A model generated the notes under the pieces. The model ran no database searches. It was not told the origin of the DNA and worked only from the letters and a program-made list of their open reading frames with translations. A stretch of 64,000 nt of DNA from Flavobacteriales bacterium. Its GTDB lineage: Bacteria; Bacteroidota; Bacteroidia; Flavobacteriales_D; Parvicellaceae. Positions within the stretch are counted from its first letter, which is position 1, and every line of letters starts with the position of its first letter. Where the stretch lies: positions 1-64,000 of the forward strand of contig JAOASC010000048.1 of the NCBI GenBank assembly GCA_025210295.1, written 5' to 3'. The position numbers were made by a program, and so were the translations under genes. This document shows positions 10,485-29,104 of the stretch, piece after piece.

Positions 10485-10486
10485 GA

Positions 10487-11683
10487 CTATTTATAATAAG
10501 GTTTCGTATTCTTTAAGTGTGACAACCCTTGGTTTCTCAGTTCATTGCTATCAACATGTGATATTTTAGCCTGAATGTGTTGCTTTTTATACTTAAAGTC
10601 AAAGGAATAAATTAAATTTTTATATTTTTTGGCTATACTTTTCCAAGAGTACCTGCGTGTCGCTATTTCGGACATCACCGCTCTCTGTTTATTCAATTCA
10701 GCTAAAGAGGTATTTTCCATTAATTGTTGTAAATCTTCAGCTTTTTTAAAGTAAAGGCACTTATCTTCTGTTGTTGCACGATTATAAGACACATCAAAAG
10801 CTACAATTGGCAAAGCCAATGACATTGCCTCTACTAAAGAAGGGTTGGTTCCTCCAGCACTGTGTCCATGCACATAAACGGCACAATTTCCTCGTAATAA
10901 ATCTAACGTTCTTTGTTCATATATAGGATCTAACAAGATGATATTCTCAAACTGACTGTATTTCTCCTTTAGCTCTATACCATATTCGCTATTCTTCCAA
11001 TTCCCAATCACAACGAGTGTTTGTTTTAACTTTGAAAAGGCTTCTAACACAACATGAATATTGTTTTCTGGTTCTATTCTAGCAACCTTAAAAGCGTAAT
11101 TTTTGATTAGAAAAGGATATTTTACCCGATCTTTATAAGTAATATCTACTTTTTCGGTATGATCTCCACCATATTCAATCAAATTACTTAATGTTTTATA
11201 ATTAATCGAAGTGTATCTTTTTATTGATAAATTATCCGTAATATCTCCATGCGAAAACTTTACTGCTATACGTTCTGAGAATTTTAAAAACAGCTTCGCA
11301 AATTTTCCCCACTTATTTCTCCTCCATTCTAACCCATCTATATTGATGATAATTTTTTTACGTGTAAAAATTCTTAGAAAAGGAATCAGCAAACCTCCTG
11401 AGACTCCTAAAATTAATAAAGTATCTGCCACAAACAAGGCATGAAGCATAGACACCATATCGTAGATAATACTTTGAACTCCATTGGCTTCGAACGGCAA
11501 ATACACCAAATCTGCACCATGCAGACTGTCTATTCGTTCTTCTTTGGTATAACTCTTTTTACTGCAATACACAGTAAACTCAAATTCATCTTGAAGCTCT
11601 TTTGTTAAAAAATGTGCTAAGGTCTCAAAACCTCCATATTTTGAAGGGATACCTACTGTTCCGATTATTGCTACTCTTTTCAT
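10487..11683 (-). CDS. GT4 glycosyltransferase with DUF1972-type N-terminus
   Basis: 398 residues with a GT-B fold. The N-terminus, IIGTVGIPSKYGGFETLAHF, matches the DUF1972 type found in rhamnosyltransferases of polysaccharide loci. The C-terminal half has HGHSAGGTNPSLVEAMSL, the E-x7-E-like nucleotide-sugar site of GT4 enzymes. It should add a sugar to the lipid-linked EPS unit in the cytoplasm. It is the first gene of the 11683 to 9417 unit and has the upstream TTCCC-N5-GGGAA element, a TTGGC box and a CCCC leader. Donor sugar not predictable. Confidence 0.88.
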   Translation of the reverse strand: MKRVAIIGTVGIPSKYGGFETLAHFLTKELQDEFEFTVYCSKKSYTKEERIDSLHGADLVYLPFEANGVQSIIYDMVSMLHALFVADTLLILGVSGGLLIPFLRIFTRKKIIINIDGLEWRRNKWGKFAKLFLKFSERIAVKFSHGDITDNLSIKRYTSINYKTLSNLIEYGGDHTEKVDITYKDRVKYPFLIKNYAFKVARIEPENNIHVVLEAFSKLKQTLVVIGNWKNSEYGIELKEKYSQFENIILLDPIYEQRTLDLLRGNCAVYVHGHSAGGTNPSLVEAMSLALPIVAFDVSYNRATTEDKCLYFKKAEDLQQLMENTSLAELNKQRAVMSEIATRRYSWKSIAKKYKNLIYSFDFKYKKQHIQAKISHVDSNELRNQGLSHLKNTKPYYK

Positions 11684-11714
11684 GATGGGGCGTTTTTTTC
11701 TACACTAATCCTAC

Positions 11715-11732
11715 TACCTAAATCACGCCAAA
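11715..11732 (-). promoter_or_regulatory. Candidate sigma54 -24/-12 promoter, unit starting at 11683
   Basis: The minus strand reads TTTGGCGTGATTTAGGT. The -24 part TTGGC matches the sigma54 consensus; ten bases after GG the -12 position has GT rather than GC. The GG lies 45 bp before the ATG. It closely resembles the element at 24592-24608 (shared TTGGC, TGATTT). The imperfect -12 box lowers confidence. Confidence 0.4.
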
Positions 11733-11805
11733 CTCCTCAATCCACTCTAAAACAACCACTTATAAAACGCCCCACCAATCCAAGAATCCCAAAACAAAAC
11801 TATTT

Positions 11806-11820
11806 TTCCCTTTTTGGGAA
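11806..11820. promoter_or_regulatory. EPS-locus operator/enhancer candidate, copy 1
   Basis: TTCCC-TTTTT-GGGAA, perfect 5-bp arms. The centre is 130 bp upstream of the start at 11683 and about 84 bp upstream of the TTGGC box. It lies 6 bp beyond the stop codon of the preceding glycosyltransferase gene. A-rich, not T-rich, sequence follows on the transcribed strand, so it is unlikely to be a terminator. Confidence 0.6.
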
Positions 11821-11826
11821 GCTGAC

Positions 11827-12954
11827 TCATAATATACCTACCAAAAAAGCATTCCAATTTTTATTAAAAACTTCACTTGTGAACTTCTGATAAAATCTAT
11901 TTTTTGCTTTTTCCCCTAGGTCTACAACCTCTTGTGGTGACTTAATTAACTTTCTTAAACTCGCAACAAAACCAGAGACATCGTGCGGTTTGATTAACAT
12001 CCCTGTTTTATCTAAAGCCTCTTTTGCTCCACCATGAGAAGTTGCGATTACTGCCTTACCTACAGACATTGCCTCTAACACTGTTGTTGGAAAAGGGTCT
12101 TTCATTATAGATGGCACCAAACAAACATCAGCTTTCATCATCTCTTGGCTGATATCATCAACAAAGGGGACAAAAGAACAATAGCCTAGCACCCCTTCTT
12201 TTTCCAACTCTCTTTTTAATTCTTCTAGTTTGTTCTCTTGCCCCTTAACAGGACTCCCAACAATAGTAAAGTGCGTTTTCTCTAATTCTAAATCACTCAA
12301 TTTTGCAATAGTTTCAGCTAAAAACCATTGCCCTTTTTCGGGTTTTATACGTCCAAATAAATAAAAATTTAAAACGTCACTCTCTTCTGTTCGTTCTTTT
12401 AATTCTAATGGTTTAATCCCATTGTACAACACTTCTGCCTTTGCTCCTATACTGGCATCATATCTTTTTAAACCATTTAACACAGCATTAGACACACAGA
12501 CAACTCTATCGGCATACTTTCGAGAAAGTTTTGCAGTGACCTTTCCAATTAACTTAGGGGAATCGATGATCTCGTGCACATGTACAAATCGTTTAATTTT
12601 CAACCATTTTAACTGTGGTAAAATCAAAGAACATGAAAGGGTATTCACATAAGCTAAATCGAATTGATGTTTTTTATGTTCTCGCTTTAGGAAACGATAA
12701 AACTTCAACCAATAATACCCAAACTTAAACACACCAGTTGGGGTAAAAATTGCCCGATAAATCACTGGCATCTTTAAATTCACTACCACCTCAACATTGG
12801 TCACATTTTGATAGATATAATCGACCAATGGCCCTTGAGAAAAAAGATAAACGACTTTTTTTACATGATCTGGCGTTGCTTGTAAAGCTGCCACCATTAT
12901 TCTATCTGCTCCATACAATTCGGAGCTTGGATGAAATATTGCAAGAGTTTTCAT
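11827..12954 (-). CDS. GT4-family glycosyltransferase
   Basis: 375 residues, GT-B fold. The N-terminal Rossmann domain begins LAIFHPSSELYGADRIMVAAL. The C-terminal donor-binding domain has FGRIKPEKGQWFLAE and later VPSIMKDPFPTTVLEAMSVGKAVIATSHGG, the GT4 signature with E-x7-E. It acts at the cytoplasmic face on the growing lipid-linked oligosaccharide. It is the third gene of the unit that starts at 16911 and begins 3 bp after its upstream neighbour ends. Donor and acceptor sugars cannot be read from the sequence. Confidence 0.88.
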   Translation of the reverse strand: MKTLAIFHPSSELYGADRIMVAALQATPDHVKKVVYLFSQGPLVDYIYQNVTNVEVVVNLKMPVIYRAIFTPTGVFKFGYYWLKFYRFLKREHKKHQFDLAYVNTLSCSLILPQLKWLKIKRFVHVHEIIDSPKLIGKVTAKLSRKYADRVVCVSNAVLNGLKRYDASIGAKAEVLYNGIKPLELKERTEESDVLNFYLFGRIKPEKGQWFLAETIAKLSDLELEKTHFTIVGSPVKGQENKLEELKRELEKEGVLGYCSFVPFVDDISQEMMKADVCLVPSIMKDPFPTTVLEAMSVGKAVIATSHGGAKEALDKTGMLIKPHDVSGFVASLRKLIKSPQEVVDLGEKAKNRFYQKFTSEVFNKNWNAFLVGIL

Positions 12955-12957
12955 AAT

Positions 12958-14226
12958 CTAGTGTGCTATAGGGTTAGTGATGGGTGCAACCATTTCGTTC
13001 GGCAAACACTCATTGTATATTGTTGTAATCGCTTTTATTTTTTTACTCCAGGTAAAACTTTCTTTAAATGTAAAACTTGAGTTTATGCTCAATCTTAAAC
13101 GTTGGCCTGGGCTATCAAAAAGCATTTTGATAGCCTCTGAAAATTCGTCCACTGCTTTTTGATAAGTAGAATAAGGAATTTTTATTCCTGCTTCTTTTTG
13201 CAATTCACCTGGCCCCACATTATCGAATGTTAAAACTGGCAAACCATAACTCATAGCCTCAGGAACAACCATACCTGCTCCTTCATGCGACGGAAATAGG
13301 AAGAGGTCACTTTGAGAATAAATTTCATGCATTTCTGACTTATCCACCCAAGCTACAAACTCTACATATTTCTCTACACCTAAATCTTCTGCCATATTTT
13401 TTAAAAAGTCTGTAAACTGACCTTTTCCCAATAACTTTAAACGCACCTCATCTTTTTGATCTTCAGGGAGTGTTCCTACGAATTTGGCAAAAGCTTTTAT
13501 TGCGATATCAAATCCTTTCATCTCCACAAATCGACCTACAGACAATATTGTAAATTTCCCTTTTTGCTTTTCATTAGGCTTTACAGGCTCAGAGGCTACT
13601 GCTGGAATAATTTCAACTTTATCAGCATGAGCCCTCATCACTTTCTGCACAGAACTATTGATCCCTATAATTTTAGCAGACTTGTAAACACTCAAACGAT
13701 AGAAAGGATCTAAGTTTCGCATCATCCATTTGACACTGTAGTACAAACGATCTTTTAAGAATGCTTTACGACCATATATTGGCAACAGGAATTCCTTGGG
13801 AACTTTTGGATGGTGACCTATTGGCCCCCATATCGTTGGTTTACCAAACACCCATAAAAAAGTTGGATGGCTATCGCTATGAAAGTTTAAATTATGAGCC
13901 AAATCAAATTTTAACTTATGCTTAGCAATAAAGAAAGTAATAAAGAACTGCCATAAATAGAAATATAACACATACCCTCTCTCTCCTATTTTCTTTTTCC
14001 AAAACATCGCCCAATTAGGCAAATCAAAATAATAAAAAGCCATATTATTATGAATTGGATCGGGAAACTCTTGGAGATACCGTTCTACATGCTCTCGATT
14101 GTTTTTTCTTGTAATGACAATTGTCTTAAAGTCTTTGGATACTCCTTTTGCAATATTCCACCCTGTTCCATCTTCAGATCCTTTGTAGGGGTTTATTGCA
14201 TACGCTGTGATTAATACTGTTTTCAT
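12958..14226 (-). CDS. GT4-family glycosyltransferase
   Basis: 422 residues. The N-terminus VLITAYAINPYKGSEDGTGW is a pattern seen in GT4 enzymes of EPS loci (glycine loop for the acceptor domain). The donor domain has LSVGRFVEMKGFDIAIKAF and FPSHEGAGMVVPEAMSYGLP with the conserved Glu pair. Second gene of the three-gene unit starting at 16911; only 12 bp separate it from the multidomain gene before it. Predicted cytoplasmic or membrane-peripheral. Confidence 0.88.
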   Translation of the reverse strand: MKTVLITAYAINPYKGSEDGTGWNIAKGVSKDFKTIVITRKNNREHVERYLQEFPDPIHNNMAFYYFDLPNWAMFWKKKIGERGYVLYFYLWQFFITFFIAKHKLKFDLAHNLNFHSDSHPTFLWVFGKPTIWGPIGHHPKVPKEFLLPIYGRKAFLKDRLYYSVKWMMRNLDPFYRLSVYKSAKIIGINSSVQKVMRAHADKVEIIPAVASEPVKPNEKQKGKFTILSVGRFVEMKGFDIAIKAFAKFVGTLPEDQKDEVRLKLLGKGQFTDFLKNMAEDLGVEKYVEFVAWVDKSEMHEIYSQSDLFLFPSHEGAGMVVPEAMSYGLPVLTFDNVGPGELQKEAGIKIPYSTYQKAVDEFSEAIKMLFDSPGQRLRLSINSSFTFKESFTWSKKIKAITTIYNECLPNEMVAPITNPIAH

Positions 14227-14238
14227 AAGGCAACATTT

Positions 14239-16911
14239 TTAAGAAACTTTTCTAAAAGTTGACTCAACAGCATTCATGGTATCCTTGAAATCATGATTCT
14301 GAATCGCCACATACATCCCTTTAGTTTGCCGTTTATTAAACCCATCAAACAACTCCTGATAACGCGATGTTAACACATCAATATCCTGTGCTTTTAACTC
14401 TTGCTTTCTTTTGAGAATAACTTCTGAATCTGCATACAAGAAGAAATTTAAATCGGGCTTCCATACTAATGCATACAAACTTTTAACAAACTTACGGTTC
14501 AAGACTATATTTGAACGTTTAGCGTCATTGATAAAGTCGAAATAATAACGATCATACAAGACGACCTTTCCTCTTAAAACATACTTAAAATAAATATAGA
14601 ACTGTCCTATTATATAGTCTGTAAAATAATACCCAAACCTCAATAAAGAGGAGATGATATTTTTATTTTTCCCTTGTCTAGGAAGCTTTATTCCCGCCTC
14701 TTTTTCGGCTTTTTCTTTTCCATGTTTAACCGCACTCAATATTGGTAACAAACCTGGTCTATGCCTCACTAGCACGACATCTTTCCTATACTTTTCTTCT
14801 ATTAGCTTTTTGAAATTACTAATCACCGTTGTTTTGCCTGCTCCATCAACACCACTAAATGTAATAATCATCCCCTTATTCAGCTTCAAATCTCTAATGG
14901 TATCCAACAAGTAGTTATAATTATTTTTGAGTCTATTCCACCCTCTATTTTCATCTCTATCAATTAATTCCTGCATCAATTGCTGTCTAAATTCAGAAGA
15001 ATAGTTGAATAAGCTTTTAAATGTCTTGGCCTTTAATCCATACTTATTGTTTAAATAATGTAAAATGGTATCTTGCTCTGGATGTGTAATTTTTTGATTA
15101 TAAAAATCTTGATACTTCTGAGGAGTATCTGCTCCGTTTAAAGTGTAAAACAAAAAGCTATATTCAAAATCGTTTTTTAAGCTTGGCTTATACACATTCC
15201 CTCCAGTTCTTCTTCTATTTTTGAACATTAGTGAGGACGCAAACATATCTAATGTTTTACGTTTAAACTGATGTATTAGATCAATACTCAAGAATGTTCC
15301 ATCTCTGAAAAACAATTGAATAATCGTCATAAAAGATTTCTCTTTTACGATTGACTTTATCACCAATGGATGTTTAACTGAGAAGCTTTTGATATTATTT
15401 ACATCTCCCTTTAAGACGGCGATATCTAAATCGGATGATTCTGAGATTTTAGTCCATTCTTCCTCTACCATTTTTAACATGGCGTAAGGTGTTTTTTCCA
15501 AACGATTTCCTAATTCTAATATAAATTCTTCTCTACAATTAATTGACTGCTTCATTTCTTTATTTCTATTAAGGTACAACAATGCTTCTTCCCACATTCT
15601 AAACTGCCATTGGTTTTGCAGGCTATGTGTTCCTTGTTTTAAATAAAGCGCCTCGTAATAACTTACAACTCCTAACAAATAGAGTTTTAGAGCGACATCA
15701 GTATCTATATTTAGCTTATTTATTTGCTTTTGTAGTGTGGGGTTAGACAAGCTTTTTTCTATTTTATTTAAAATAACGCTTAAGGCTATTTTTTCGACTA
15801 ATATTCCTGTTTGAAAATGAAAATGAAATAGATCGAATAATGGCGAGAAGTTTTTCCTAGCTAGCTCCCAATCATAAACATATAATTCACTTTCATTTAC
15901 AAACATATTCCAAGGTGTAAAGTCTCCATGAGCCATACTGGTTACGATTTCGTCTTCTGGATTTAACTGCTCCATCACTCCTTTTAGTAACCGAACCATT
16001 CTTTCATGCCTTGGCGTTTTTGCGTGCGCCTCTATAAAGGCTACATTATTTTTACCATTCTGATATACGCTACATGCTTCTATAGACTTTGACTCAGCAG
16101 TCTTAACCAACAACTCATTTAAGGCTTCAAAATGCGGCTTCAATAAATCATTTGAACGTGTTTTATTCTTTAATTCCTCATTTGTTGTCACACACTCGTT
16201 AAGGTTACTTACAGAAAACACCTGAGGTATTTTAAACGTCTTAAACTTCCCTTTGATTTGTTGAAGCACTTCTGTTTCCTTAGCTATCAACTTCTGACTA
16301 GTTTTTGCTATAGGAATTTTAATAAAATGTGTCGACTGCCCTTTAGTACTTAATTCGATTAATGCTGTTCGGTTTAGTCCAGCTGTTCCTGTAAAAATTG
16401 AATACGTTTTATGGGCTAACAACGCATAGTCTTTGTTGGGTTTTAACTCTTTTTTATGTAAAATGGTAAATTTAGATTTTGCTACCAAGCTTCCCATTCC
16501 TAAAAAAAACGCCGTACGAATCGATTGGCTCATTAACTTAGCCTTTAACGTTGAGGCATTGTAAAAATTCAAGAATGATGCACTTTTATTTTCTTTGGGG
16601 TATACCCAACGCATTGATCCATCATTATTAGCAATGTACGAAAATGTAGTTTTCTTAAAATTTGGATTGGTATTTTGGTTTTCAAAATCAAATATATAAT
16701 CGAACTCTGTTAAGTCCATATTTTTATATCCTACTATTTCTCCTGCCAAATTGACTAAAACTAGTGGCGCTTTTTCATTCGTCTTTTTTAGATCAAAAGC
16801 AATATCACTTTCTAATTTAAGGTATGGATCAAAAACAAATAGTTGGTATTCTTCTCCTATGAGTGTTTTGAGAAGAATATCTAAATCTGATAATCTTAGA
16901 TTTTCTTTCAT
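14239..16911 (-). CDS. Three-module protein: APH-like kinase, nucleotidyltransferase-like, thymidylate-kinase-like
   Basis: Unusual 890-residue protein inside the EPS locus. Residues 1-230 match nothing I recognise. Around 300-450 is an aminoglycoside/choline-kinase-like (APH) domain with catalytic HGDFTPWNM (328-336) and YDWELAR (346-352). At 475-560 a segment has SSDLDIAVL (492-500), resembling the D-x-D metal motif of nucleotidyltransferase folds. The C-terminal 210 residues form a thymidylate-kinase-like P-loop domain: Walker A GVDGAGKTT (687-695) and DRYYFD (787-792). The module order suggests an enzyme that phosphorylates or nucleotidylates a sugar or small alcohol used to decorate the polysaccharide, but this is inference. 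It heads a unit with the shared operator, TTGGC box and C-rich leader. Confidence 0.7.
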   Translation of the reverse strand: MKENLRLSDLDILLKTLIGEEYQLFVFDPYLKLESDIAFDLKKTNEKAPLVLVNLAGEIVGYKNMDLTEFDYIFDFENQNTNPNFKKTTFSYIANNDGSMRWVYPKENKSASFLNFYNASTLKAKLMSQSIRTAFFLGMGSLVAKSKFTILHKKELKPNKDYALLAHKTYSIFTGTAGLNRTALIELSTKGQSTHFIKIPIAKTSQKLIAKETEVLQQIKGKFKTFKIPQVFSVSNLNECVTTNEELKNKTRSNDLLKPHFEALNELLVKTAESKSIEACSVYQNGKNNVAFIEAHAKTPRHERMVRLLKGVMEQLNPEDEIVTSMAHGDFTPWNMFVNESELYVYDWELARKNFSPLFDLFHFHFQTGILVEKIALSVILNKIEKSLSNPTLQKQINKLNIDTDVALKLYLLGVVSYYEALYLKQGTHSLQNQWQFRMWEEALLYLNRNKEMKQSINCREEFILELGNRLEKTPYAMLKMVEEEWTKISESSDLDIAVLKGDVNNIKSFSVKHPLVIKSIVKEKSFMTIIQLFFRDGTFLSIDLIHQFKRKTLDMFASSLMFKNRRRTGGNVYKPSLKNDFEYSFLFYTLNGADTPQKYQDFYNQKITHPEQDTILHYLNNKYGLKAKTFKSLFNYSSEFRQQLMQELIDRDENRGWNRLKNNYNYLLDTIRDLKLNKGMIITFSGVDGAGKTTVISNFKKLIEEKYRKDVVLVRHRPGLLPILSAVKHGKEKAEKEAGIKLPRQGKNKNIISSLLRFGYYFTDYIIGQFYIYFKYVLRGKVVLYDRYYFDFINDAKRSNIVLNRKFVKSLYALVWKPDLNFFLYADSEVILKRKQELKAQDIDVLTSRYQELFDGFNKRQTKGMYVAIQNHDFKDTMNAVESTFRKVS

Positions 16912-16942
16912 ATTTTTGGGGGTTGGGGTTCATATTTATACT

Positions 16943-16959
16943 ATTCATTATAGTGCCAA
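16943..16959 (-). promoter_or_regulatory. Candidate sigma54 -24 element, unit starting at 16911
   Basis: The minus strand reads TTTGGCACTATAATGAAT. TTGGCAC is a full match to the sigma54 -24 box, but the expected GC ten bases after GG is AA. The GG is 45 bp before the ATG, the same distance as for the 11683 unit. Confidence 0.35.
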
Positions 16960-17035
16960 AGTCGATTTACAAAACGTAAAGCACTGACCTACAAATAAAT
17001 AAACAGAAGAGTCAAATCATCCTATTACCATAACT

Positions 17036-17050
17036 TTCCCATAATGGGAC
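17036..17050. promoter_or_regulatory. EPS-locus operator/enhancer candidate, copy 2
   Basis: TTCCC-ATAAT-GGGAC; the inner 13 bases TCCCATAATGGGA form a perfect palindrome around one base. The centre is 132 bp before the start at 16911 and 86 bp before the TTGGCAC box. It lies 2 bp past the stop codon of the preceding polymerase gene. Confidence 0.6.
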
Positions 17051-17052
17051 GG

Positions 17053-18360
17053 TTATTCCGAATTCTGCACTCGGCTTACCAACTTATGGGTTGATTTTTT
17101 AAAAATAGCATACCTTACTTTTTCTTGAAAAGTCCAATTTGTTCTTATTTCAATCACAAATAACATGATCAAAAATTGGTAAAAAAGGATTCCATAATTG
17201 GTCTCACCAAAAATTCCAAACTCGGTAATAGAGTTGATAAAAGCAGGAATAAACATTGCAATAAAAAAATCACCATAAGGAGAGTCTTTTTCTTTAAAAT
17301 AATTTCTTACGGTCGTAACTAATTGCCAGAATGCAATAAAAAAACCTACAAAGCCTAAATTCATTAAAACTTGCATAAAGGTATTGTGCGTCATCTTTGC
17401 TGGATAGGTATTTAACCCTTGAAAATAGTCTGTATAATTGATTCGCATAAACCCATAACCAAAATAAGGTTCTCTTACAATTCCTTCATTTAACAATGCT
17501 TTCCAGAATGGGAGTCGTCCAGTCATACTCATCACCTCTTCAACTCCTCCTCCTTCTTTAAAAATCACAAATTTTAAAATAAAAGGAAATGCTATCCCCA
17601 TTGAAGAAAACATTGCTATTTTAAGTTTTGCATTATCTGATTTTAAGATTAATATTCCAATAATCAAAAAGAAACCTATAGCTGTTGATCTTGATGAAGT
17701 CATCCCTAAAACGGCTAAAGCTATAAGAATACTAATTACTGTAATTACTTTATGCTTGGTTTTCTGAAAATGAATGTACCCCATAGCTGCGGCAATACTC
17801 GACAACATCCCGAGTTCATTGGGATTCATTAGGTAACCTCCTAATCGGTACTCTTCCCCTCCACGCATTCCTCTCCAAAATAAATCTGGAAAAGCCATAG
17901 AACCAATAAAAAAGATAATCATAATTGGGAATGCTCCCCAGACAAACATTTGCACCATGTTAACCGGTCTTTCTGGAAAATAAAAATTCACCATTGCTAC
18001 AACTCGCATATACACGATAACGAAAGTTAAACTTTCGACAACCATTATCCATTGCAACACGGAGTATGTTGGATCTGTAGACCAAGAAAAAGATGCAAAC
18101 CCTAATATTAAATAAGCTCCATACAACAAAGGCGACACCACATTTTTATAACGAAAAGTTGGAATACAACCTATTTTGGACAGCTTAAATTGCAAATAAA
18201 AAATGGCTCCAGTCATCCCAACTCGAGTAATAATTTTGAAGACCTGATTGATTCCTCTATCCTCTACAATAGAAAAATAGCCCGCAATTTTCAGACACAG
18301 AATAGTGATTAGCAAACCACTAATATTCCTCACAAAATATGGAAGCTTTTCATTCTGCAT
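17053..18360 (-). CDS. O-antigen ligase/polymerase (Wzy-like) membrane protein
   Basis: 435 residues with about eleven hydrophobic segments and a larger extracytoplasmic loop containing PYFGYGFMRINYTDYFQG and MTHNTFMQVLMNLG, the H-N pattern typical of the Wzy_C/WaaL superfamily. In a Wzx/Wzy pathway it would join lipid-linked repeat units into polymer on the periplasmic side. It is the only such gene in the locus, so a polymerase role is more likely than a ligase role. Last gene of the long unit from 24557; its start overlaps the upstream glycosyltransferase gene by 11 bp. Confidence 0.85.
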   Translation of the reverse strand: MQNEKLPYFVRNISGLLITILCLKIAGYFSIVEDRGINQVFKIITRVGMTGAIFYLQFKLSKIGCIPTFRYKNVVSPLLYGAYLILGFASFSWSTDPTYSVLQWIMVVESLTFVIVYMRVVAMVNFYFPERPVNMVQMFVWGAFPIMIIFFIGSMAFPDLFWRGMRGGEEYRLGGYLMNPNELGMLSSIAAAMGYIHFQKTKHKVITVISILIALAVLGMTSSRSTAIGFFLIIGILILKSDNAKLKIAMFSSMGIAFPFILKFVIFKEGGGVEEVMSMTGRLPFWKALLNEGIVREPYFGYGFMRINYTDYFQGLNTYPAKMTHNTFMQVLMNLGFVGFFIAFWQLVTTVRNYFKEKDSPYGDFFIAMFIPAFINSITEFGIFGETNYGILFYQFLIMLFVIEIRTNWTFQEKVRYAIFKKSTHKLVSRVQNSE

Positions 18361-19459
18361 AAACTTTCAACAACTTTTGGGCAATGACATTCCAATCGTA
18401 TTCTTTTTTTATCATCTCTATTGCTGCTTTTCTTTTTCTAAGGTGGCTTCCATCTTTTTTCCATTCATAGGCTTTTTGAAAAGCTTTTGCCAAAATTCCG
18501 GGGGTGTTTTCCTCCAATACAATACCTGCATTATATACCCCAACTTGACTAACATTTGTGGTTTTACTAACAATACTCGGTACCCCCAGCGCTGCACACT
18601 CTAATACAACACCTGGCAACCCCTCATTACGTGAAGTCAGCACCAAATAATCTAATTTTTGGAATAGATCTATTTTTTGTTCTCCATATTGAGCTCCCAA
18701 AAACTTCACTTTAGACATTAAATTTAATTCCTTGATTAAATCTACAAGCGTCTCCTTATCTTCTCCATCACCAATCATCCACATCACTCCTTTTCCGTTA
18801 TATTTTTTTAAATATTCTGAAAAACCTTTTAGGAGTATATCCAATCCTTTCGTATGCAAATCCAACCTACCACAAAAACCAAAGACGGGATCTTTTTTAG
18901 TCTCATCTACCCAATTTATTTTGCTTTCATTGACCTGTTCTCCATTAGGGATTAAACAATAACGATCGACTTTCACCATATTATTGGTTCCTGAAATTTC
19001 ACTTTCTCCTACAAAATGAATTGCTTTGGCATTTTTAATAATCTTTCTTTCATAGAGTGAAAAATAGATTTTTTTCTTCACCCAACTTCTTTTCATTGCT
19101 ATAGTATTAAAGCTCCCATGAGGCGTATATATATATTGATAACCTAACTTACTCATCAGTTGCGAAATGGTAAAAAACTGTGGAATAAACCCTCCATGAA
19201 TATGAAAAACAGCGGTTTTACTTTCGTTTTTTAATGCTTGCTCAAAACCTTCTGGCATTGCGAACTTCTCTAAATCTTTAAACAAAACAGTACTGTAAAT
19301 TCGTTCTGGATAGTTGTGCACAGGGTTTTTGGTTATACCCCACACTTCTACTTCACACCCTAACTGGGTTTGTGAAATAGCCAAACTATTCACCACCTTG
19401 TTAACTCCATTCATTTTATTTGGATTCGCTTTTCCTAAAGTGACATGTATAACTTTCAT
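18350..19459 (-). CDS. GT4-family glycosyltransferase
   Basis: 369 residues, GT-B fold. The N-terminus, VIHVTLGKANPNKMNGVNKVV, holds the acceptor-side glycine loop. FHIHGGF and YTPHGSFN follow, and the donor half has FGFCGRLDLHTKGLDILLKGF and LTSRNEGLPGVVLECAALGVP with the GT4 Glu pair. It should elongate the EPS unit in the cytoplasm. It sits between the flippase (2 bp gap) and the polymerase gene (11 bp overlap) in one operon. Confidence 0.88.
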   Translation of the reverse strand: MKVIHVTLGKANPNKMNGVNKVVNSLAISQTQLGCEVEVWGITKNPVHNYPERIYSTVLFKDLEKFAMPEGFEQALKNESKTAVFHIHGGFIPQFFTISQLMSKLGYQYIYTPHGSFNTIAMKRSWVKKKIYFSLYERKIIKNAKAIHFVGESEISGTNNMVKVDRYCLIPNGEQVNESKINWVDETKKDPVFGFCGRLDLHTKGLDILLKGFSEYLKKYNGKGVMWMIGDGEDKETLVDLIKELNLMSKVKFLGAQYGEQKIDLFQKLDYLVLTSRNEGLPGVVLECAALGVPSIVSKTTNVSQVGVYNAGIVLEENTPGILAKAFQKAYEWKKDGSHLRKRKAAIEMIKKEYDWNVIAQKLLKVYAE

Positions 19460-19461
19460 AT

Positions 19462-20712
19462 TTATTTTGTTTTAAGTTTGGCTGCTAATCGAATTAGCAT
19501 GTAAAAAAGTGAAACAACTTGCACGAGTAAAAGTCCTACCAAAACTCCATTCAACTGATAATTAGCGACAAAGAAACCTGCTGTTAAAAAACTAAACAAA
19601 CCTGTAATAATGTAGTTTTCTAGTACAATTCGATTTTCTTCAAAAGTTCTAATTACAAACCTTAGAATTGTTCCTAAAAAGATAAAGATGTAGATGACTG
19701 CAAAGCCGATAATGATATAATCGTAAATAAGGTATTCTGCTCCATATACCAACTCAATAATTGGACCTCTAAACACAGCTATCAACACTAGGATCAACAC
19801 TGTCATTAGGCCTGTTTTAATGGTCATTTGCTTAAAGAAATTTAAGGTTGGTTCTTTTCCATTTTTTGTTAAAATCTTTGAAGCTTGTATAGGGATTAAA
19901 TTCTCCAATGCTAAAAACAAAATATGCAATACTCCCATCAAATTTTGAGCGATTCTGATTACTCCAATTGCTAAAGGACCTAAGACTCCTGTTGCAAAAA
20001 CAATGAAATAGTTTCCTGAAAACCATTGCAATATTGAAGTAAAGAATAAATGTTTTGAAAACCCCCAAAACGCTTTAAACAACTGTACAGTTTGATGACT
20101 AAAGCGTTCCTTTTCTGCTAAGAAATATTGGACTATTGAAACCACGATCATTAATCCAAACAACCCCATAAAAAAGCTATGAATAGTGAGCAAATCAAAA
20201 ACATACAATACTACCACTAAAACAGGCTGAAATCCATAAGCTATAATATCAGAGACCAAGACGATAAAGCCGTTATTTTCAACAAAATTCTTTCTTCTAA
20301 AAAAATCTTGCATTAGAAATGCTCCCACGACTAATGGTAAACTATAAAACACACCTGCTCTGTACCAAGTATTATTGAAATAAAAAACAATTAAAACAAC
20401 GACCAATGCTACCAACATTGACAACACAGTAAATAATAATTGTAAATTAAATGCTTGACTTAAAAAAACAGATTTTTCTTCAGATTTTGCATGCAAAGTA
20501 TACATTGGTGCAACAATGACTGCTTGTTGAACACTGCTAAAGAACAGCACTAACATCCAAGCTGTAGCAAACACACCAAACTCTTCTAGCCCCATGAAGC
20601 GCGTTAATAAAATGGCTATTAAAAAGTTAACTCCACTTACTAAAGCTTGATCACACAAAACATACAACTGGTGCTTTTTTGAATGTACGATATGTTTTAT
20701 TTTATTTAGCAT
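19462..20712 (-). CDS. Wzx-type polysaccharide flippase
   Basis: 416 residues with about twelve membrane helices and few charged loops, in the MATE/MOP flippase superfamily (LLTRFMGLEEFGVFATAWMLVLFF near the N-terminus is typical of Wzx/RfbX). It should move undecaprenyl-linked repeat units across the inner membrane. Its start overlaps the end of the tyrosine kinase gene by 11 bp, so the genes are coupled. Not to be confused with the second flippase at 36757, which lies outside this locus. Confidence 0.85.
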   Translation of the reverse strand: MLNKIKHIVHSKKHQLYVLCDQALVSGVNFLIAILLTRFMGLEEFGVFATAWMLVLFFSSVQQAVIVAPMYTLHAKSEEKSVFLSQAFNLQLLFTVLSMLVALVVVLIVFYFNNTWYRAGVFYSLPLVVGAFLMQDFFRRKNFVENNGFIVLVSDIIAYGFQPVLVVVLYVFDLLTIHSFFMGLFGLMIVVSIVQYFLAEKERFSHQTVQLFKAFWGFSKHLFFTSILQWFSGNYFIVFATGVLGPLAIGVIRIAQNLMGVLHILFLALENLIPIQASKILTKNGKEPTLNFFKQMTIKTGLMTVLILVLIAVFRGPIIELVYGAEYLIYDYIIIGFAVIYIFIFLGTILRFVIRTFEENRIVLENYIITGLFSFLTAGFFVANYQLNGVLVGLLLVQVVSLFYMLIRLAAKLKTK

Positions 20713-22945
20713 TGTAATAATGTTTTAAACGGTAATACAAATGCTTTAAGCTTAGATTATAATTAGAGAAATATCCCGTATAATTTATACTTGAACTAAT
20801 ATCGTTTAGTAAGAATTGAATATTATCTACTCCATATTCTTCTTTCAAAATATCTGGAAAAGTTGCATACTTAAAATAAGTATAGTTTGCTCGAACAACA
20901 AACAAAGAAACACTTGATGCTTTCATAAGTTCTATAGCTGATATAGACTCCTTAATAGAACCTCCATCTATTACGACAAAATCGTATTTCTCTTTTAAAA
21001 TGGCTATTTTCGCCAAAACATGCTCTACATTATTTAAAAAAGAATTGTCTTTATTTAACGTTGAATACAGCGCTATACCTTCTGCTAACTCTATAGATTC
21101 ATCTACTGCATTTAAGTAGTTAAACTTTTTTACTCCTGTTTGCAATGATGGGCGTTCCATATCTAAATCAACAAGTGCAACGCGGTATCCCATTTCAACT
21201 AAAGCAGCGCCTAGATTTCTGGTGATAAATGATTTTCCTTCTCCTTCAACTGCCGAAACAATTGTTAAAACATTATGATCTTTCTTATTGATAAATCCTT
21301 TAAGCAGCAGCCCTTTTGCAATAGTGATAAACTCACTACTGACCATATTTTCTTTTCTACGACGTACCAAAGCAACAATAGGTGTTAGCGAAGTTTTTTC
21401 TATATCTACTTTATCTATAATTTTCTTGACAATAGCCGCTCTAAAATAGACGATAATAATTCCAATGATTAAACCTAACAACCCAAAGACGAATGTAATT
21501 AAAGTCTTATTAGGTTTCACAGCTTTTTTCTCGACTACAGCTTTTTGAATCACTCGATGAAATGCTGTTTTTACTGATGCTGCAATGGAAGCTTCTATTA
21601 ATTTTTCTGATAAGAAGTTATAGCTACTTTCTTGTAACCTAAACTCTCTTTCTAAGATTTTTAAATCCTTTTCTCTTTGGGGAAAATGCTTGAATTGAAC
21701 TTCTGCTATTTTAAGTGCCTCTTCAGCTTCAATAATTTTAGTTGCTATCTCCTTTTTGTTTGATTTAATGGCTTCTTTAATGTAATTTTTAATTTCCTCT
21801 ATTTTCTCATCATGTGCAACGACTTTTTCATGGTCTTCGGTATAAAGTGCCAAAAGGTCTTTTCTTTCTCCAATCAGAATTTGCATTTTTTTGACCAACT
21901 CTGTCATTAATAGATCTCCAAAACCAAAACTTACAGATGTTTCATCAAAGAAATTTCCCTCAGCTATATAGGCCTCTAATTGATCTACACTCTGTTTATT
22001 AATTGACAGGTTAATTAATTGTATTTTCAGCTTCGAGATTTCTCTCAATCCCGTTTCTGTTTCTTGCAAAGTATTGACTACATCATTTTGTTCTTTGAAG
22101 CGCTTCAAATCCAATTCGGCTCGCTCTAGTTTTTGACGCACTTCTGCTAACTGACTTTTAATGAAGTTCACTGAGGTATTGGCCGCCGAAGCTTTACTTG
22201 CAATATAATCGTCGACATAAACTTGGCATAATCTATTGGTAAACTTTGCTGCTCTAACAGCCGACTCATCGGTATATACAACCCTCAACACAAAAATCTC
22301 CTTACTAACAGCCTTTACATCCAATCGGCTTTTGACATCTTTAATTAAACTTTCTCTATCAAAAAACTTCACCTTATAGGCTCCATCTCTTACAATATTT
22401 TTATCGGCCAACTCTCTTTTAAAAACAGTAATCGTTCCGCCTTCAAACTCAAAGCTTTTTCCTAAAAATGACTCGTAAGCAATTGCATTTTCTTCCTTTC
22501 CTACCTTTAATGTTACAGAGTCATCTTTTATAATAAGACCATACTCTTTTTTATACAGCTCTGGATTTTCAAAATGATACGTTACTGTTATTGGAGAGTT
22601 ATCGTACAACAAAGTCTTCTTAATACTTCCAGCTCGATAAATTGCTATATCAAAATCTAAACTATCAATAGCCATTCCCACCAATAAAGGTGAGTTTAGA
22701 ATTTCTGCTTCTGTTTCGATATACTTTTCAGAGCTAAACACATCAAAATCCTCAAACATTGCTGTACTAGAGAATCCATATTTACTATCATCTAATTTGA
22801 CCTTAGCAATACTTTGATAGGTTGTATTGGTATACAAGATAATTTTTGCAGCAAACAACAATGCTAACAATAGGCAAAGGATTATAATGGGAATTCCTCT
22901 AAGAACAACTCCTAATTGCTTTTTCATATTTTGAAAACCACTCAT
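20702..22945 (-). CDS. Wzc-type polysaccharide co-polymerase with bacterial tyrosine kinase domain
   Basis: 747 residues. Membrane helices lie at about 15-38 and 482-500 and flank a periplasmic Wzz domain with long coiled coils (about 255-450). The cytoplasmic kinase domain has Walker A VEGEGKS (566-572), Walker A' ALVDLDMERPS (590-600) and Walker B YDFVVIDG (654-661). The last 26 residues contain seven tyrosines (722, 725, 729, 737, 738, 743, 744), the autophosphorylated Tyr cluster of BY-kinases. With the Wza-like lipoprotein it controls EPS chain length and export. One base separates it from that gene. All key motifs look intact. Confidence 0.93.
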   Translation of the reverse strand: MSGFQNMKKQLGVVLRGIPIIILCLLLALLFAAKIILYTNTTYQSIAKVKLDDSKYGFSSTAMFEDFDVFSSEKYIETEAEILNSPLLVGMAIDSLDFDIAIYRAGSIKKTLLYDNSPITVTYHFENPELYKKEYGLIIKDDSVTLKVGKEENAIAYESFLGKSFEFEGGTITVFKRELADKNIVRDGAYKVKFFDRESLIKDVKSRLDVKAVSKEIFVLRVVYTDESAVRAAKFTNRLCQVYVDDYIASKASAANTSVNFIKSQLAEVRQKLERAELDLKRFKEQNDVVNTLQETETGLREISKLKIQLINLSINKQSVDQLEAYIAEGNFFDETSVSFGFGDLLMTELVKKMQILIGERKDLLALYTEDHEKVVAHDEKIEEIKNYIKEAIKSNKKEIATKIIEAEEALKIAEVQFKHFPQREKDLKILEREFRLQESSYNFLSEKLIEASIAASVKTAFHRVIQKAVVEKKAVKPNKTLITFVFGLLGLIIGIIIVYFRAAIVKKIIDKVDIEKTSLTPIVALVRRRKENMVSSEFITIAKGLLLKGFINKKDHNVLTIVSAVEGEGKSFITRNLGAALVEMGYRVALVDLDMERPSLQTGVKKFNYLNAVDESIELAEGIALYSTLNKDNSFLNNVEHVLAKIAILKEKYDFVVIDGGSIKESISAIELMKASSVSLFVVRANYTYFKYATFPDILKEEYGVDNIQFLLNDISSSINYTGYFSNYNLSLKHLYYRLKHYYNAK

Positions 22946-22946
22946 C

Positions 22947-23675
22947 TTAATTACTTAATACTGAATATAGGATTGCTAAAGAAGAAACTAAACTTGCAAA
23001 TGGAATAATTGTAGGTGCTTTTTTGTCGATTCGTTGCTCATTTTTGGACAACACATTTAGCACATCTCCTGAATGTAACACGACATTATATTCTAGGGCA
23101 TTTTTAGCAGTAAAATCCAAAATATAGGTTTTCCCTTCTCGAATCAATTGAACCTTAGATTTATTCGCATAGAATGTTAGCCCTTGTGCCTCTCCAATAA
23201 CTTCAGCTACACGCGTTCGTTCTTTCTCTAAAACATATACACCAGGCTGATTGACCTCTCCCAAAACAGTTACCTTTTTATTCATAATTTTGATGACTAT
23301 TATGGGATCTTTTAAGGTCTTTCCAAACTCTGTCTTTAATTCTTCTGCTGCCTCTTTACATGTTAAACCACCAATCTTAAAGATTCCTAACTTTGGCAAT
23401 GCCACGGTACTATCTTCTTGAACCAGCAACCATTTACCAAAAGCTTCATTAGAATTATAGATACTAAACGTTGAGCCAACGCTCACATCATTGTGATTCC
23501 AAATACTTAAACTAACCTTATCATCTGGTTTAATGATATGTTCATATGATGTATCATCTAAAGACACGTCGAGCACATCATACTTCGGTGTTTTTTCGAA
23601 AATATTTATCGTTTTACACTGTGAGAATAATAGGGCGAAAAATGCTAATACGATATGTAAATTCCAAGTTTTCAT
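22947..23675 (-). CDS. Wza-like polysaccharide export lipoprotein
   Basis: 242 residues. The lipoprotein signal ends in LLFSQC with acylated C20. A Poly_export domain (about 45-130) starts IIKPDDKVSLSIWNHND, then an SLBB domain has VTVLGEVNQPGVYVL, and a hydrophobic C-terminal segment (about 223-241) replaces the long helical barrel of E. coli Wza, as in many Bacteroidetes homologues. Outer-membrane part of the export channel, partner of the Wzc-like kinase. One base separates it from the receiver gene upstream. Confidence 0.92.
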   Translation of the reverse strand: MKTWNLHIVLAFFALLFSQCKTINIFEKTPKYDVLDVSLDDTSYEHIIKPDDKVSLSIWNHNDVSVGSTFSIYNSNEAFGKWLLVQEDSTVALPKLGIFKIGGLTCKEAAEELKTEFGKTLKDPIIVIKIMNKKVTVLGEVNQPGVYVLEKERTRVAEVIGEAQGLTFYANKSKVQLIREGKTYILDFTAKNALEYNVVLHSGDVLNVLSKNEQRIDKKAPTIIPFASLVSSLAILYSVLSN

Positions 23676-23676
23676 T

Positions 23677-24165
23677 TTAAGACAAATACTTTATTTGCAA
23701 ATAGATATAGGCCATAGCCAGCAATACAAAACTGACAATAAATGTTTTTTTGGCTTTCTTGAGGTCTTCATTTTCCTGAAGAATTATATTATACTTATTG
23801 ATTTGTGCTATTATCCCAGGAATTCTTCCTAAAGAATGATTATTTTTCTCTACATAATCATAAGCTCCATATTTCAAGGAATCTACTGCTACAGAAATAT
23901 TTTCTTGTCCAGATAGAAATACAATTTGAATATTCGGGTTAACACTTTTAATCTCTTTCAGAACTTCTAAACCGTTCATTTTTCCTAAATCATAATCTAA
24001 AATTATAATGGACGGATTTCGAAATAGGTTGTCAACGCAATCTTCACCAGAATGATAAAGCTCTACATTCGTATAGCCTTTTTCTTCCAACCTACTATTT
24101 ATTAGCTCAGAATAGAAGACATTGTCTTCTACAATAAAAATTTTAGGGTTATCTTTTTCTGCCAT
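23677..24165 (-). CDS. Single-domain response regulator with C-terminal membrane anchor
   Basis: 162 residues. Residues 1-125 form a canonical receiver: acidic pair E13/D14, phosphoacceptor D57 in IIILDYDLG, S85 in IVFLSGQ and K107. A short charged, helical linker (125-140) is followed by one hydrophobic segment (about 141-157), after which the protein ends. There is no DNA-binding or enzymatic output domain. A receiver tethered to the membrane by its own C-terminus is unusual. Its place directly before the export and tyrosine kinase genes suggests it docks on the EPS machine and changes its activity when phosphorylated (inference). The hybrid kinase and HPt encoded just upstream are the obvious phosphodonors. 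Confidence 0.85.
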   Translation of the reverse strand: MAEKDNPKIFIVEDNVFYSELINSRLEEKGYTNVELYHSGEDCVDNLFRNPSIIILDYDLGKMNGLEVLKEIKSVNPNIQIVFLSGQENISVAVDSLKYGAYDYVEKNNHSLGRIPGIIAQINKYNIILQENEDLKKAKKTFIVSFVLLAMAYIYLQIKYLS

Positions 24166-24170
24166 AATAG

Positions 24171-24557
24171 TTATGCTGTTAAGTCATTAAAATAATTCGA
24201 GTTTAACACATGGTTAATATCCCAAAAAGCCTCTTTACAGATTACTGTTTTGTGTACATCCAACATTGGATAGTTATTGTTAATAGCATCCGAATAATCT
24301 GGAGAGAAATGAAAAACAGCAGTGCCTTTCATTTGCATTTTCACAGTTCGGAGTAAATCTACTATTGGCTCTTCATTATCTTCCTTATGAAAGTAAGAGT
24401 CTATAATAACAACACTAGGGTTTAATTCTCTAAAGTTAATGTTAGTGTAACCAGATGCTTGGATTAACCAAACATTCGTTTCTGATAATTCAATATGGTT
24501 TCTCCAGAATGAGAGCCCAAAATTGTTGAAGCTGATAATTAATACATTTTGTTTCAT
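24171..24557 (-). CDS. Divergent receiver-like small protein, first gene of main EPS operon
   Basis: 128 residues with alternating beta/alpha pattern like a CheY fold: VLIISF (strand 1), SVVIIDSYF with D53 (strand 3), TAVFHFSP with S85 (strand 4), and VICKEA with K108 (strand 5). The acidic pair after strand 1 is missing (SFNN), so Mg-dependent phosphorylation looks impaired and it may be a pseudo-receiver. No other domain is present. It starts the seven-gene unit 24557 to 17053, 5 bp before the membrane-anchored receiver, and is preceded by the best sigma54-like promoter of the locus. Function unknown. Confidence 0.6.
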   Translation of the reverse strand: MKQNVLIISFNNFGLSFWRNHIELSETNVWLIQASGYTNINFRELNPSVVIIDSYFHKEDNEEPIVDLLRTVKMQMKGTAVFHFSPDYSDAINNNYPMLDVHKTVICKEAFWDINHVLNSNYFNDLTA

Positions 24558-24591
24558 GGGGGGTAGTTATTTTTAATTATACATTTTTTGC

Positions 24592-24608
24592 CGCTGAAAT
24601 CAAGCCAA
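24592..24608 (-). promoter_or_regulatory. Candidate sigma54 -24/-12 promoter, main EPS operon
   Basis: The minus strand reads TTGGCTTGATTTCAGC: TTGGC at -24 and, exactly ten bases after GG, the -12 GC. This is the most complete of the three candidates. The GG is 48 bp before the ATG at 24557, giving a predicted leader of about 24 nt that contains the CCCCCC run. Confidence 0.5.
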
Positions 24609-24680: not shown

Positions 24681-24695
24681 TTCCCAAATTGGGAA
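24681..24695. promoter_or_regulatory. EPS-locus operator/enhancer candidate, copy 3
   Basis: TTCCCAAATTGGGAA, a perfect palindrome of two 7-bp arms around one base. The centre is 131 bp before the start at 24557 and about 82 bp before the TTGGC box, a normal place for an NtrC-type enhancer site. It touches the stop codon of the HPt gene. Confidence 0.65.
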
Positions 24696-25016
24696 TCAAG
24701 ACAATTGATTGACTAGAGACTTTAAATCTCCAATAAAACTTGTCACGTTTTCAATAGCATCATCATTAGTAAAATCTTGTTTCTCAATGGTTCTTACTTG
24801 ATTTCTCATTTGAACTACAGCCATATAATCCAATGAGGGTTTTATGCTATGTGCTATTTCGCTAATTCTAACAAAGTTTTCTTCTTCTAGGTTTTGTTCT
24901 ATTTTTTTTATGTTAAGGGTCGTCTCTTCAATAAAAATAGATTTCATTTTATTGAGAAGCCCTACATCTCCATTGGCGAGCTCCTCTAGTAAGGTTAAGT
25001 CAATTAAATTTTCCAT
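24696..25016 (-). CDS. Histidine phosphotransfer (HPt) protein
   Basis: 106 residues, all helical. The HPt signature is IAHSIKPS with the phosphorylatable H56. It should shuttle phosphate between the receiver of the hybrid kinase encoded 7 bp upstream and a downstream receiver, most likely the NtrC-type regulator and possibly the membrane-anchored receiver. It ends the four-gene signalling unit 28986 to 24696. Confidence 0.88.
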   Translation of the reverse strand: MENLIDLTLLEELANGDVGLLNKMKSIFIEETTLNIKKIEQNLEEENFVRISEIAHSIKPSLDYMAVVQMRNQVRTIEKQDFTNDDAIENVTSFIGDLKSLVNQLS

Positions 25017-25023
25017 TTTTTCT

Positions 25024-27084
25024 TTATTTAATCCATTTCAAAATTTTCTCATTTAAAACATCTTTTTCAAAAGGTTTTGATACATAGTCATTCATGCCCA
25101 TACTCAAATACTTTTCTTTATCTCCTTTTATTGCGTTAGCTGTAAGAGCTATAATTGGGATCTTAAGTTTCATTTCTTCTCTAATTATTTTGGTCGCTTC
25201 TTCTCCATTCATATTCGGCATTCTAACATCCATCAATACAATATCAAAGTTGGCTTCGTTTAATTTTTCTATTGCGATTTCTCCATCATCTGCGCATACC
25301 ACTTCACATTCCCAACCTTTTAGGATTGTTTGAGCTAAGAACTGGTTCACCTTATTATCTTCGACCAATAACACTCTAACTCCTTTGGGTAATTTTTCTA
25401 CGGAAGCATTATTAACCATTGCTTGAAATTGGAGGATCTCTAAGTCCAACTCAAATGAGAACTCAGTGCCCTCTCCTACTTTACTCTTCACTTTAAGGTC
25501 TCCTCCCATCAATTTAATTAACTGATAACTAATGGACAATCCTAATCCAGTACCTCCAAACAAACGTGCTGTTGAAGTCTCTGCTTGAGCAAAGGAATCA
25601 AATATGGTATTTTGATGTTTCTGAGAGATACCAATTCCTGTATCTTTCACAGAAAAATGAATTTTATAGTTCTTTTTATCTTTTTCTAACAGTTCAACTT
25701 TTAATACAACCTCTCCTTCTTCGGTAAACTTAAATGCATTTCCTAACAAGTTAATCAACACCTGATTTAAACGCGTTGGGTCTCCCAATACTTCTTTTCT
25801 AATTTTCTTATCTAAATCACGTACAAAGTGAAGTTTCTTATCTTTCGCCAACGGTAAAAAAACTTCTACTGTTTTGTCTACTGTTTGCATTACATCAAAC
25901 GGAATGCTTTCTATTTGTAACTTTCCAGCCTCTATTTTTGAGAAATCTAAAATATCGTTGATAATTGTCAATAAATTTTTTGCTGATGTATTAATGGTAC
26001 TCACATACTTATATTGCTGATTGGTAAGTACTGTCTCCGTTAAAAGATTTCCCAACCCAAGTATTGCATTCATCGGCGTTCGGATTTCATGGCTCATATT
26101 TGCCAGGAACATTTCTTTACTCTTAACAGAGGCTTCAGCTACTTCTTTTGCAATTTTTAGCTCCGACTCCATTGCTTTGCGCTGAGAAATATTTAAGTAA
26201 ATACCTATTGATCCTAAATAAACTCCTTTGACATCATAGAAGGGTGCATTAGATACAATCACCCATAAATAGTTCCCATTTTTATGCCGAATTCTAACTT
26301 CACAAACACTTGCAAATTTTCTTGCTCCATCTTCATTTGCCTCTGTTTTATCGTCGTCATGTAAAAACACTTCTCGGGCATTTAAACCTATTAAGTCTTG
26401 CTCTTCATACCCACATAATTCACAAAATTTTGGGTAAGCTCTAGTAATTGCTCCATTGACATCTATTTCCAACAGTCCCAATTCCAAGTTTTCTATTATT
26501 CCTCTATACTTTTCTTCACTATTTTTAAGTACTTGAGTTAAATTTCTTCTTTCCGTTACATCTCTTGCTACAACAATAAACTCATTTCTTTCTTTATACG
26601 CATTAAAAACAAAGTTTGCTGTTTGATTGATCCAGATTCTATCCCCCGACTTCGTCACAATGGGAAATTCCATATCTTTTGCCGGAAGGTCTAGTTCTAC
26701 CTGATTTAAATAATAGGCTGTCACCTCTTTTTCAAAAGACGGATCGATGATATCATTAATCCTTAATCGCATAAATTCCGCTTCTGTATACCCTGTAACT
26801 TCAACAGTTTTAGGATTCACATATAGAAATCGACCACGAATATCAGTTTTGTATATAATATCGTTTACTGCTTCTACCAACTCTTGATATTCGTGTTCAG
26901 CAAATTCCAGCTGTTTAATTCTTCTATCAACTTCAGATTGTAGCTCATCATTCAAAGCATTTAACTTTTGATTTGCTTCAAACAACTCTAGACTTTTTTG
27001 CTCTAAAATATTTTCAGCTTCTTTTCGTGCTAAACGCTCTCGTTTAATTCTTCTTTGTAATATGTCTAACTCGGGATCTAACAT
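25024..27084 (-). CDS. Hybrid sensor histidine kinase, PAS-PAS-HisKA-HATPase-REC
   Basis: Soluble kinase of 686 residues without membrane segments. It has an N-terminal coiled coil (1-65, RRIKRERLARKEAENILEQK), PAS 1 (about 65-180), PAS 2 (about 190-302, with a PAC motif), HisKA with H332 in MSHEIRTPMN, an ATPase with N, G1 and G2 boxes (NLLGNAFKF, DTGIGI, GTGLGLSI), and a receiver with D619 in VLMDVRMP and K670. It lies 1 bp from the H-NOX gene, the standard genomic sign of an H-NOX-regulated kinase, so NO-bound H-NOX probably controls its autophosphorylation. Phosphate would then pass D619 to HPt H56. Confidence 0.93.
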   Translation of the reverse strand: MLDPELDILQRRIKRERLARKEAENILEQKSLELFEANQKLNALNDELQSEVDRRIKQLEFAEHEYQELVEAVNDIIYKTDIRGRFLYVNPKTVEVTGYTEAEFMRLRINDIIDPSFEKEVTAYYLNQVELDLPAKDMEFPIVTKSGDRIWINQTANFVFNAYKERNEFIVVARDVTERRNLTQVLKNSEEKYRGIIENLELGLLEIDVNGAITRAYPKFCELCGYEEQDLIGLNAREVFLHDDDKTEANEDGARKFASVCEVRIRHKNGNYLWVIVSNAPFYDVKGVYLGSIGIYLNISQRKAMESELKIAKEVAEASVKSKEMFLANMSHEIRTPMNAILGLGNLLTETVLTNQQYKYVSTINTSAKNLLTIINDILDFSKIEAGKLQIESIPFDVMQTVDKTVEVFLPLAKDKKLHFVRDLDKKIRKEVLGDPTRLNQVLINLLGNAFKFTEEGEVVLKVELLEKDKKNYKIHFSVKDTGIGISQKHQNTIFDSFAQAETSTARLFGGTGLGLSISYQLIKLMGGDLKVKSKVGEGTEFSFELDLEILQFQAMVNNASVEKLPKGVRVLLVEDNKVNQFLAQTILKGWECEVVCADDGEIAIEKLNEANFDIVLMDVRMPNMNGEEATKIIREEMKLKIPIIALTANAIKGDKEKYLSMGMNDYVSKPFEKDVLNEKILKWIK

Positions 27085-29089: not shown

Positions 29090-29104
29090 TTCCCAATACG
29101 AGAC
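29090..29104. promoter_or_regulatory. Degenerate EPS-locus operator, copy 4, before the signalling operon
   Basis: TTCCC-AATAC-GAGAC: the left arm is perfect and the right arm keeps 3 of 5 bases. The centre is 111 bp before the activator start at 28986 and about 40 bp from the -7 element of the divergent peptidase gene. No TTGGC box follows at the expected distance, so it may serve weak autoregulation, or be chance. Confidence 0.35.

Follow-up and report, generated by a model that had tools for sequence, protein, structure and literature searches.

The three exopolysaccharide (EPS) units encoded on the minus strand of the analysed DNA, a 64,000-nucleotide stretch of a Flavobacteriales genome (the window), are very probably driven by sigma54 promoters and by the activator encoded in the same cluster (estimated probability about 0.9). 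The reading draws on predicted sequence features: the intact RpoN box of the genome's sigma54, the GAFTGA activator at the head of the cluster, the -24/-12 columns that are conserved across the phylum and at the unit gaps only, and a helically phased operator. A preliminary description of this DNA had proposed that the EPS units use sigma54, and this evidence supports it.

Regulatory genes and EPS units

The minus-strand cluster is ordered activator, H-NOX, hybrid kinase, Hpt and then the three EPS units:

27628-28986, minus strand: sigma54 enhancer-binding protein with receiver, AAA+ domain with GAFTGA and Fis-like HTH (Pfam PF00158, 3.2e-71; PF00072)
27086-27631, minus strand: H-NOX heme-NO-binding protein (PF07700, 2.9e-42; YxSxR motif, as YYSQR)
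25024-27084, minus strand: hybrid histidine kinase (PAS domains, HisKA, HATPase, REC)
24696-25016, minus strand: Hpt phosphotransfer protein (PF01627, 2e-7)
24171-24557, minus strand: first gene of unit 3, small fast-evolving protein with a predicted receiver-like alpha/beta fold, without Pfam match
23677-24165, minus strand: receiver protein with a C-terminal hydrophobic stretch (PF00072, 1.6e-21)
17053-23675, minus strand: remainder of EPS unit 3 (Poly_export/SLBB, Wzz-GNVR chain-length/kinase protein, flippase, glycosyltransferase, Wzy)
11827-16911, minus strand: EPS unit 2 (890-aa kinase-like protein and two glycosyltransferases)
9417-11683, minus strand: EPS unit 1 (DUF1972 glycosyltransferase and WecA-like phosphosugar transferase)

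The activator contains the receiver, Sigma54_activat and lid domains identified by Pfam, as well as the GAFTGA motif. Pfam named no HTH; the C-terminal one was recognised by reading the sequence. The genome encodes RpoN (PF04552, 7.4e-55) with an intact RpoN box (ARRTVAKYRE) and only three strong sigma54 activators. Since all 176 good genomes of the order Flavobacteriales encode RpoN, its co-occurrence with the activator is uninformative and was dropped as evidence.

The model of the receiver-like protein (24171-24557) has a pLDDT of 75, and its Foldseek matches to receivers are weak (best E 0.007). This protein shares 14-29% identity with its orthologues, and its position is kept in many relatives; BLASTP of its 128 residues against the neighbouring receiver was unconvincing. 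The 890-aa protein (14239-16911) carries a thymidylate-kinase-like domain at its C-terminus and its relative in L125 also has an APH match, in the N-terminal half, so that the protein looks like a fused double kinase.

Promoter boxes and operators in the window

The predicted promoters and the palindromes upstream of them, which are candidate activator sites, are as follows:

24592-24608, minus strand: predicted sigma54 -24/-12 promoter of unit 3, TTGGCTTGATTTCAGCG, full GG-N10-GC, predicted +1 near 24581
16943-16959, minus strand: predicted sigma54 -24/-12 promoter of unit 2, TTGGCACTATAATGAAT, strong -24, AA at -12, predicted +1 near 16932
11715-11731, minus strand: predicted sigma54 -24/-12 promoter of unit 1, TTGGCGTGATTTAGGTA, GG-N10-GT, predicted +1 near 11704
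24681-24695, minus strand: candidate activator site (UAS) of unit 3, TTCCCAATTTGGGAA, 73 bp before TGGC
17036-17050, minus strand: candidate activator site of unit 2, GTCCCATTATGGGAA, 77 bp before TGGC
11806-11820, minus strand: candidate activator site of unit 1, TTCCCAAAAAGGGAA, 75 bp before TGGC
29090-29104, minus strand: weak, half-degenerate operator upstream of the activator gene, GTCTCGTATTGGGAA, score 9/13 only

The intergenic gaps that separate the EPS units span about 140 bp. The minus-strand TTGGC boxes have their first T at 11731, 16959 and 24608 (units 1, 2 and 3). As initially described, the GG lies 45, 45 and 48 bp before the ATGs of units 1-3 (11683, 16911 and 24557), the boxes are 82-86 bp from the palindrome centres, and the dinucleotides after GG-N10 are GT, AA and GC; all these values were confirmed. 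The accompanying remark that none of the three gaps shows a clear TAnnTTTG element holds for units 2 and 3. It fails for unit 1, whose gap contains a single exact copy (TAGTTTTG, about 11795-11802) located about 110 bp before the ATG and adjoining the palindrome. This copy may be a minor upstream promoter or a chance match.

TTGGC alone occurs at chance level (122 copies in the window versus 113 +/- 10 expected), and TGGC is also present before a few unrelated genes. The combination of palindrome and box, on the other hand, has three matches in the window versus none in 100 shuffles. In the 4.2 Mb genome, TCCC-N5-GGGA followed by TTGGC after 60-90 bp is found three times, always at the start of an EPS unit, whereas the reversed pattern gives one match. 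The pattern TCCCA-N4-GGGA with TGGC gives 3 versus 0 matches. The three other perfect copies of TTCCC-N5-GGGAA in the genome are placed inside genes or at a gene end; consequently, no further regulon member was found there.

Operator distance and the recognition helix of the activator

The distance between operator and box had been described as fixed; in relatives it changes in steps of about 10 bp, so that a helically phased distance fits better. The palindrome-to-box distances across relatives group around 43, 54, 65, 74, 85 and 95 bp, and few values fall in between. Taking one value per gene and genus, the best period is about 10.1-10.3 bp with R = 0.62 over 89 values, a figure that none of 5000 draws from a smoothed null attained (p ~2e-4). 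Different helical turns are used at orthologous gaps, and therefore the phasing does not merely reflect one inherited distance.

The fifth base of the operator tends to vary with one residue of the activator recognition helix (R with C, K or N with A). The window lineage and its Crocinitomix relatives combine TTCCC-N5-GGGAA with the helix GKSTIYR, most other relatives combine TTCCA-N5-TGGAA with GKST(I/V)YN or GKSTIYK, and two relatives with GKTTIYK have mostly TTCCG half-sites. The recognition residue changes three times on the tree and the independent pairs are concordant. L196 returns to R and TTCCC within a K clade, and L190 combines N with TTCCA near the R rows, in a tree placement that is not firmly supported. 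L149 is an exception to the linkage, having R with mostly A. The suggestion that residue and operator changed together is graded as suggestive and not as proof, because the test comprises only 2-3 independent pairs (sign test p 0.5 at best).

Near-perfect palindromes (score of at least 11/13) also precede the activator gene itself in the loci of 18 relatives, and in 0 of 12 GQ-type loci, which points to autoregulation of the activator. In the window, autoregulation through the weak operator at 29090-29104 is possible. A group of activator relatives has the helix GQTT(V/I)YR (L075, L076, L078, L083-L085, L097, L099, L103, L105 and L109). These are mostly located beside a kinase, without EPS genes, and have no good palindrome upstream.

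It is very unlikely that the promoters are of the sigma54 type while a different regulator binds the palindrome and one of the other two activators of the genome drives them. The genome does offer three strong sigma54 activators and binding by the clustered one is a prediction, but in many relatives this activator is found within the same cluster, changes in its recognition helix tend to accompany those of the operator, and its own gene is preceded by similar palindromes in the 18 relatives mentioned above.

Conservation across Flavobacteriales and Bacteroidota

Full-length relatives of the activator occur at about 62 places in 249 genomes of the order, with a clear score gap to paralogues. 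Two such relatives are plasmid-borne, in Aureispira anguillae (NZ_AP026868.1, 53% identity) and Hymenobacter swuensis (NZ_CP007144.1, 52%). The order of regulatory and EPS genes seen in the window recurs in G067, G182, G184, G106 and G150 and, in rearranged form, in G069; at the orthologous gaps, nearly all contain the palindrome and a TGGCAC-like box. The same cluster is also carried by the cultured relatives Crocinitomix catalasitica (L151) and Brumimicrobium (L186, L210). In G006, from the same genus as the window, the kinase gene is preceded by a degraded operator and a TTGGT box. In L139, L141, L146, L154 and L157-L160 the activator is placed at the downstream end of the EPS cluster and not upstream. 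A loose search of 150 relatives for TCCC-N5-GGGA-N60-90-TTGGC led to the G067 cluster and was otherwise discarded, its matches in richer-GC genomes being mostly background.

The phylum-wide set was obtained by a scan with a Wzy alignment, which yielded 80 loci in Bacteroidota. Most of them contain the same EPS cluster and many have the activator, kinase, Hpt and receiver alongside. Footprinting was carried out on roughly 85 related loci that represent five classes of Bacteroidota. With dereplication at 60% identity as the sole correction for shared ancestry in all counts over related loci, the pair of palindrome and -24 element marks 154 of the 205 orthologous unit starts, and does so in five classes. 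The corresponding counts are 6 among 536 internal genes and 31 among the 205 starts when read on the reverse complement. The 51 starts (of 205) that lack the pair at the thresholds used may reflect misplaced gene starts, operators of another form or a true lack of the pair.

In the 150 bp upstream of the first genes of the three units, TGGCA[CT] occurs in 27, 36 and 31 cases versus 3.6, 5.2 and 5.0 in shuffled sequence; before internal genes it is at or below expectation. Boxes chosen by TGGCA alone reveal additional conserved columns, T at -15 (67/78) and G at -13 (45/78), which have the spacing of the sigma54 -12 element; nothing TATA-like stands out. The -12 element is loose: C at -12 is present in just 19 of 78 boxes across relatives, and unit 2 of the window has AA.

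In a highly improbable alternative, an ordinary Bacteroidota sigmaA promoter (TTTG / TAnnTTTG) would use the TTTG of TTTGGC as its -33 element, and a repressor would bind at the palindrome. TTTGGC is indeed read in two of the three boxes of the window, and AT-rich stretches are placed downstream of the boxes, with TATAAT in units 2 and 3. However, the base before TGGC is often not T in relatives, GGCA being the part that is kept. The Bacteroidota sigmaA element TAnnTTTG, expected at -7, is absent near the predicted starts of the three window units and is not enriched in 129 gaps (3, 1 and 4 copies versus 3.1, 2.5 and 2.2 expected). In addition, the cluster is headed by a sigma54 activator, and phased positions 42-98 bp upstream suit an activator better than a repressor. 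A chance co-occurrence within one AT-rich window, which the background frequency of TTGGC alone would allow, can practically be dismissed given the empty shuffles, the genome-wide uniqueness of the palindrome/box pairs and the conservation looked for and found at orthologous gaps of distant relatives.

Proposed mechanism and sensor input

According to the sigma54 reading, the sigma54-RNA polymerase would transcribe the three EPS units in vivo from the -24/-12 promoters, and only when the activator (27628-28986) occupies the TTCCC-N5-GGGAA palindrome upstream of each unit. Bound on the correct face of the helix, the activator would then remodel the closed complex through the GAFTGA loop of its AAA+ domain. 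The phosphorelay encoded beside it would feed its receiver, presumably in the order hybrid kinase, Hpt and receiver. The H-NOX protein, likely a gas sensor input in the window, would modulate this phosphorelay, such that a gas signal, probably NO, would set the EPS production.

An NO input to the EPS switch of the window is moderately probable. H-NOX is present in the window and in many Flavobacteriales clusters and was not detected in others; NO is therefore not a universal input. One kinase, of the Brumimicrobium type, has PAS and GAF domains in addition, and HNOBA is found in the kinase of G116. By analogy with HnoX and HahK of Vibrio fischeri, our guess is that NO would lower EPS.

It is somewhat probable that these clusters form a dedicated sigma54 EPS regulon throughout the phylum whose sensor can be exchanged, the window lineage using H-NOX and others PAS/GAF kinases, whose -12 element is relaxed to T-N-G in place of TTGC, and whose activator residue and operators changed together more than once.

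Relation to known systems

The syp system of Vibrio fischeri comprises four EPS operons. Every one of them has a sigma54 promoter and is bound by the same activator, SypG, at its own sites (PMC10804989). The kinase HahK is under negative control of the H-NOX protein HnoX (PMC12369376). The SypG site TTCTCANNNTGMDWN (quoted in PMC10162802) resembles TTCC(C/A)-N5-(G/T)GGAA and matches TTCTCAAAATGAGAA of the relatives G116 and L142. Both systems have multiple EPS units, each with a sigma54 promoter and an activator site, which are predicted in the present case. For the syp chain HnoX - HahK/RscS - SypF(Hpt) - SypG, the adjacent H-NOX, hybrid kinase and Hpt genes of the window are candidate counterparts. 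On the other hand, the window belongs to another phylum, has different EPS genes in a different order, three units versus four, a separate Hpt protein and a receiver-like first gene. The regulon may be said to work like syp, a known biofilm switch, in its logic, and membership is not claimed.

In Flavobacterium psychrophilum, of the same order, sigma54 -24/-12 promoters (motif SM4) were mapped and one was confirmed by promoter mutagenesis (PMC9723704), and therefore this promoter class works in Flavobacteriales. The SM4 targets are chaperones, gliding and exported proteins, with no EPS target among those described in the excerpts of that paper (PMC9723704). A general proposal holds that sigma54 controls EPS and envelope genes, the bacterial exterior (PMC3162934); its text has no mention of Bacteroid-, Cytophaga, Flavobacter- or Gramella. 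PrsR (TIGR02915), the PEP-CTERM/exosortase regulator, is another sigma54 response regulator with a connection to EPS genes. Against this model the activator reaches a score of 371.9, below the cut-off of 502.6, and was not assigned to it; the genes scanned showed no exosortase.

The open-licence literature searched yielded no account of this EPS regulon; in it, EPS control in Bacteroidota appears to be little described. The combination of operator, helical distance and -24/-12 box provides a testable rule that predicts regulated EPS units across five classes and links these units to a single activator and partly also to a gas sensor. A natural series of matched activator and operator changes is also on offer. 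Finally, the H-NOX, phosphorelay, sigma54 and EPS logic of Vibrio fischeri is suggested to operate in another phylum.
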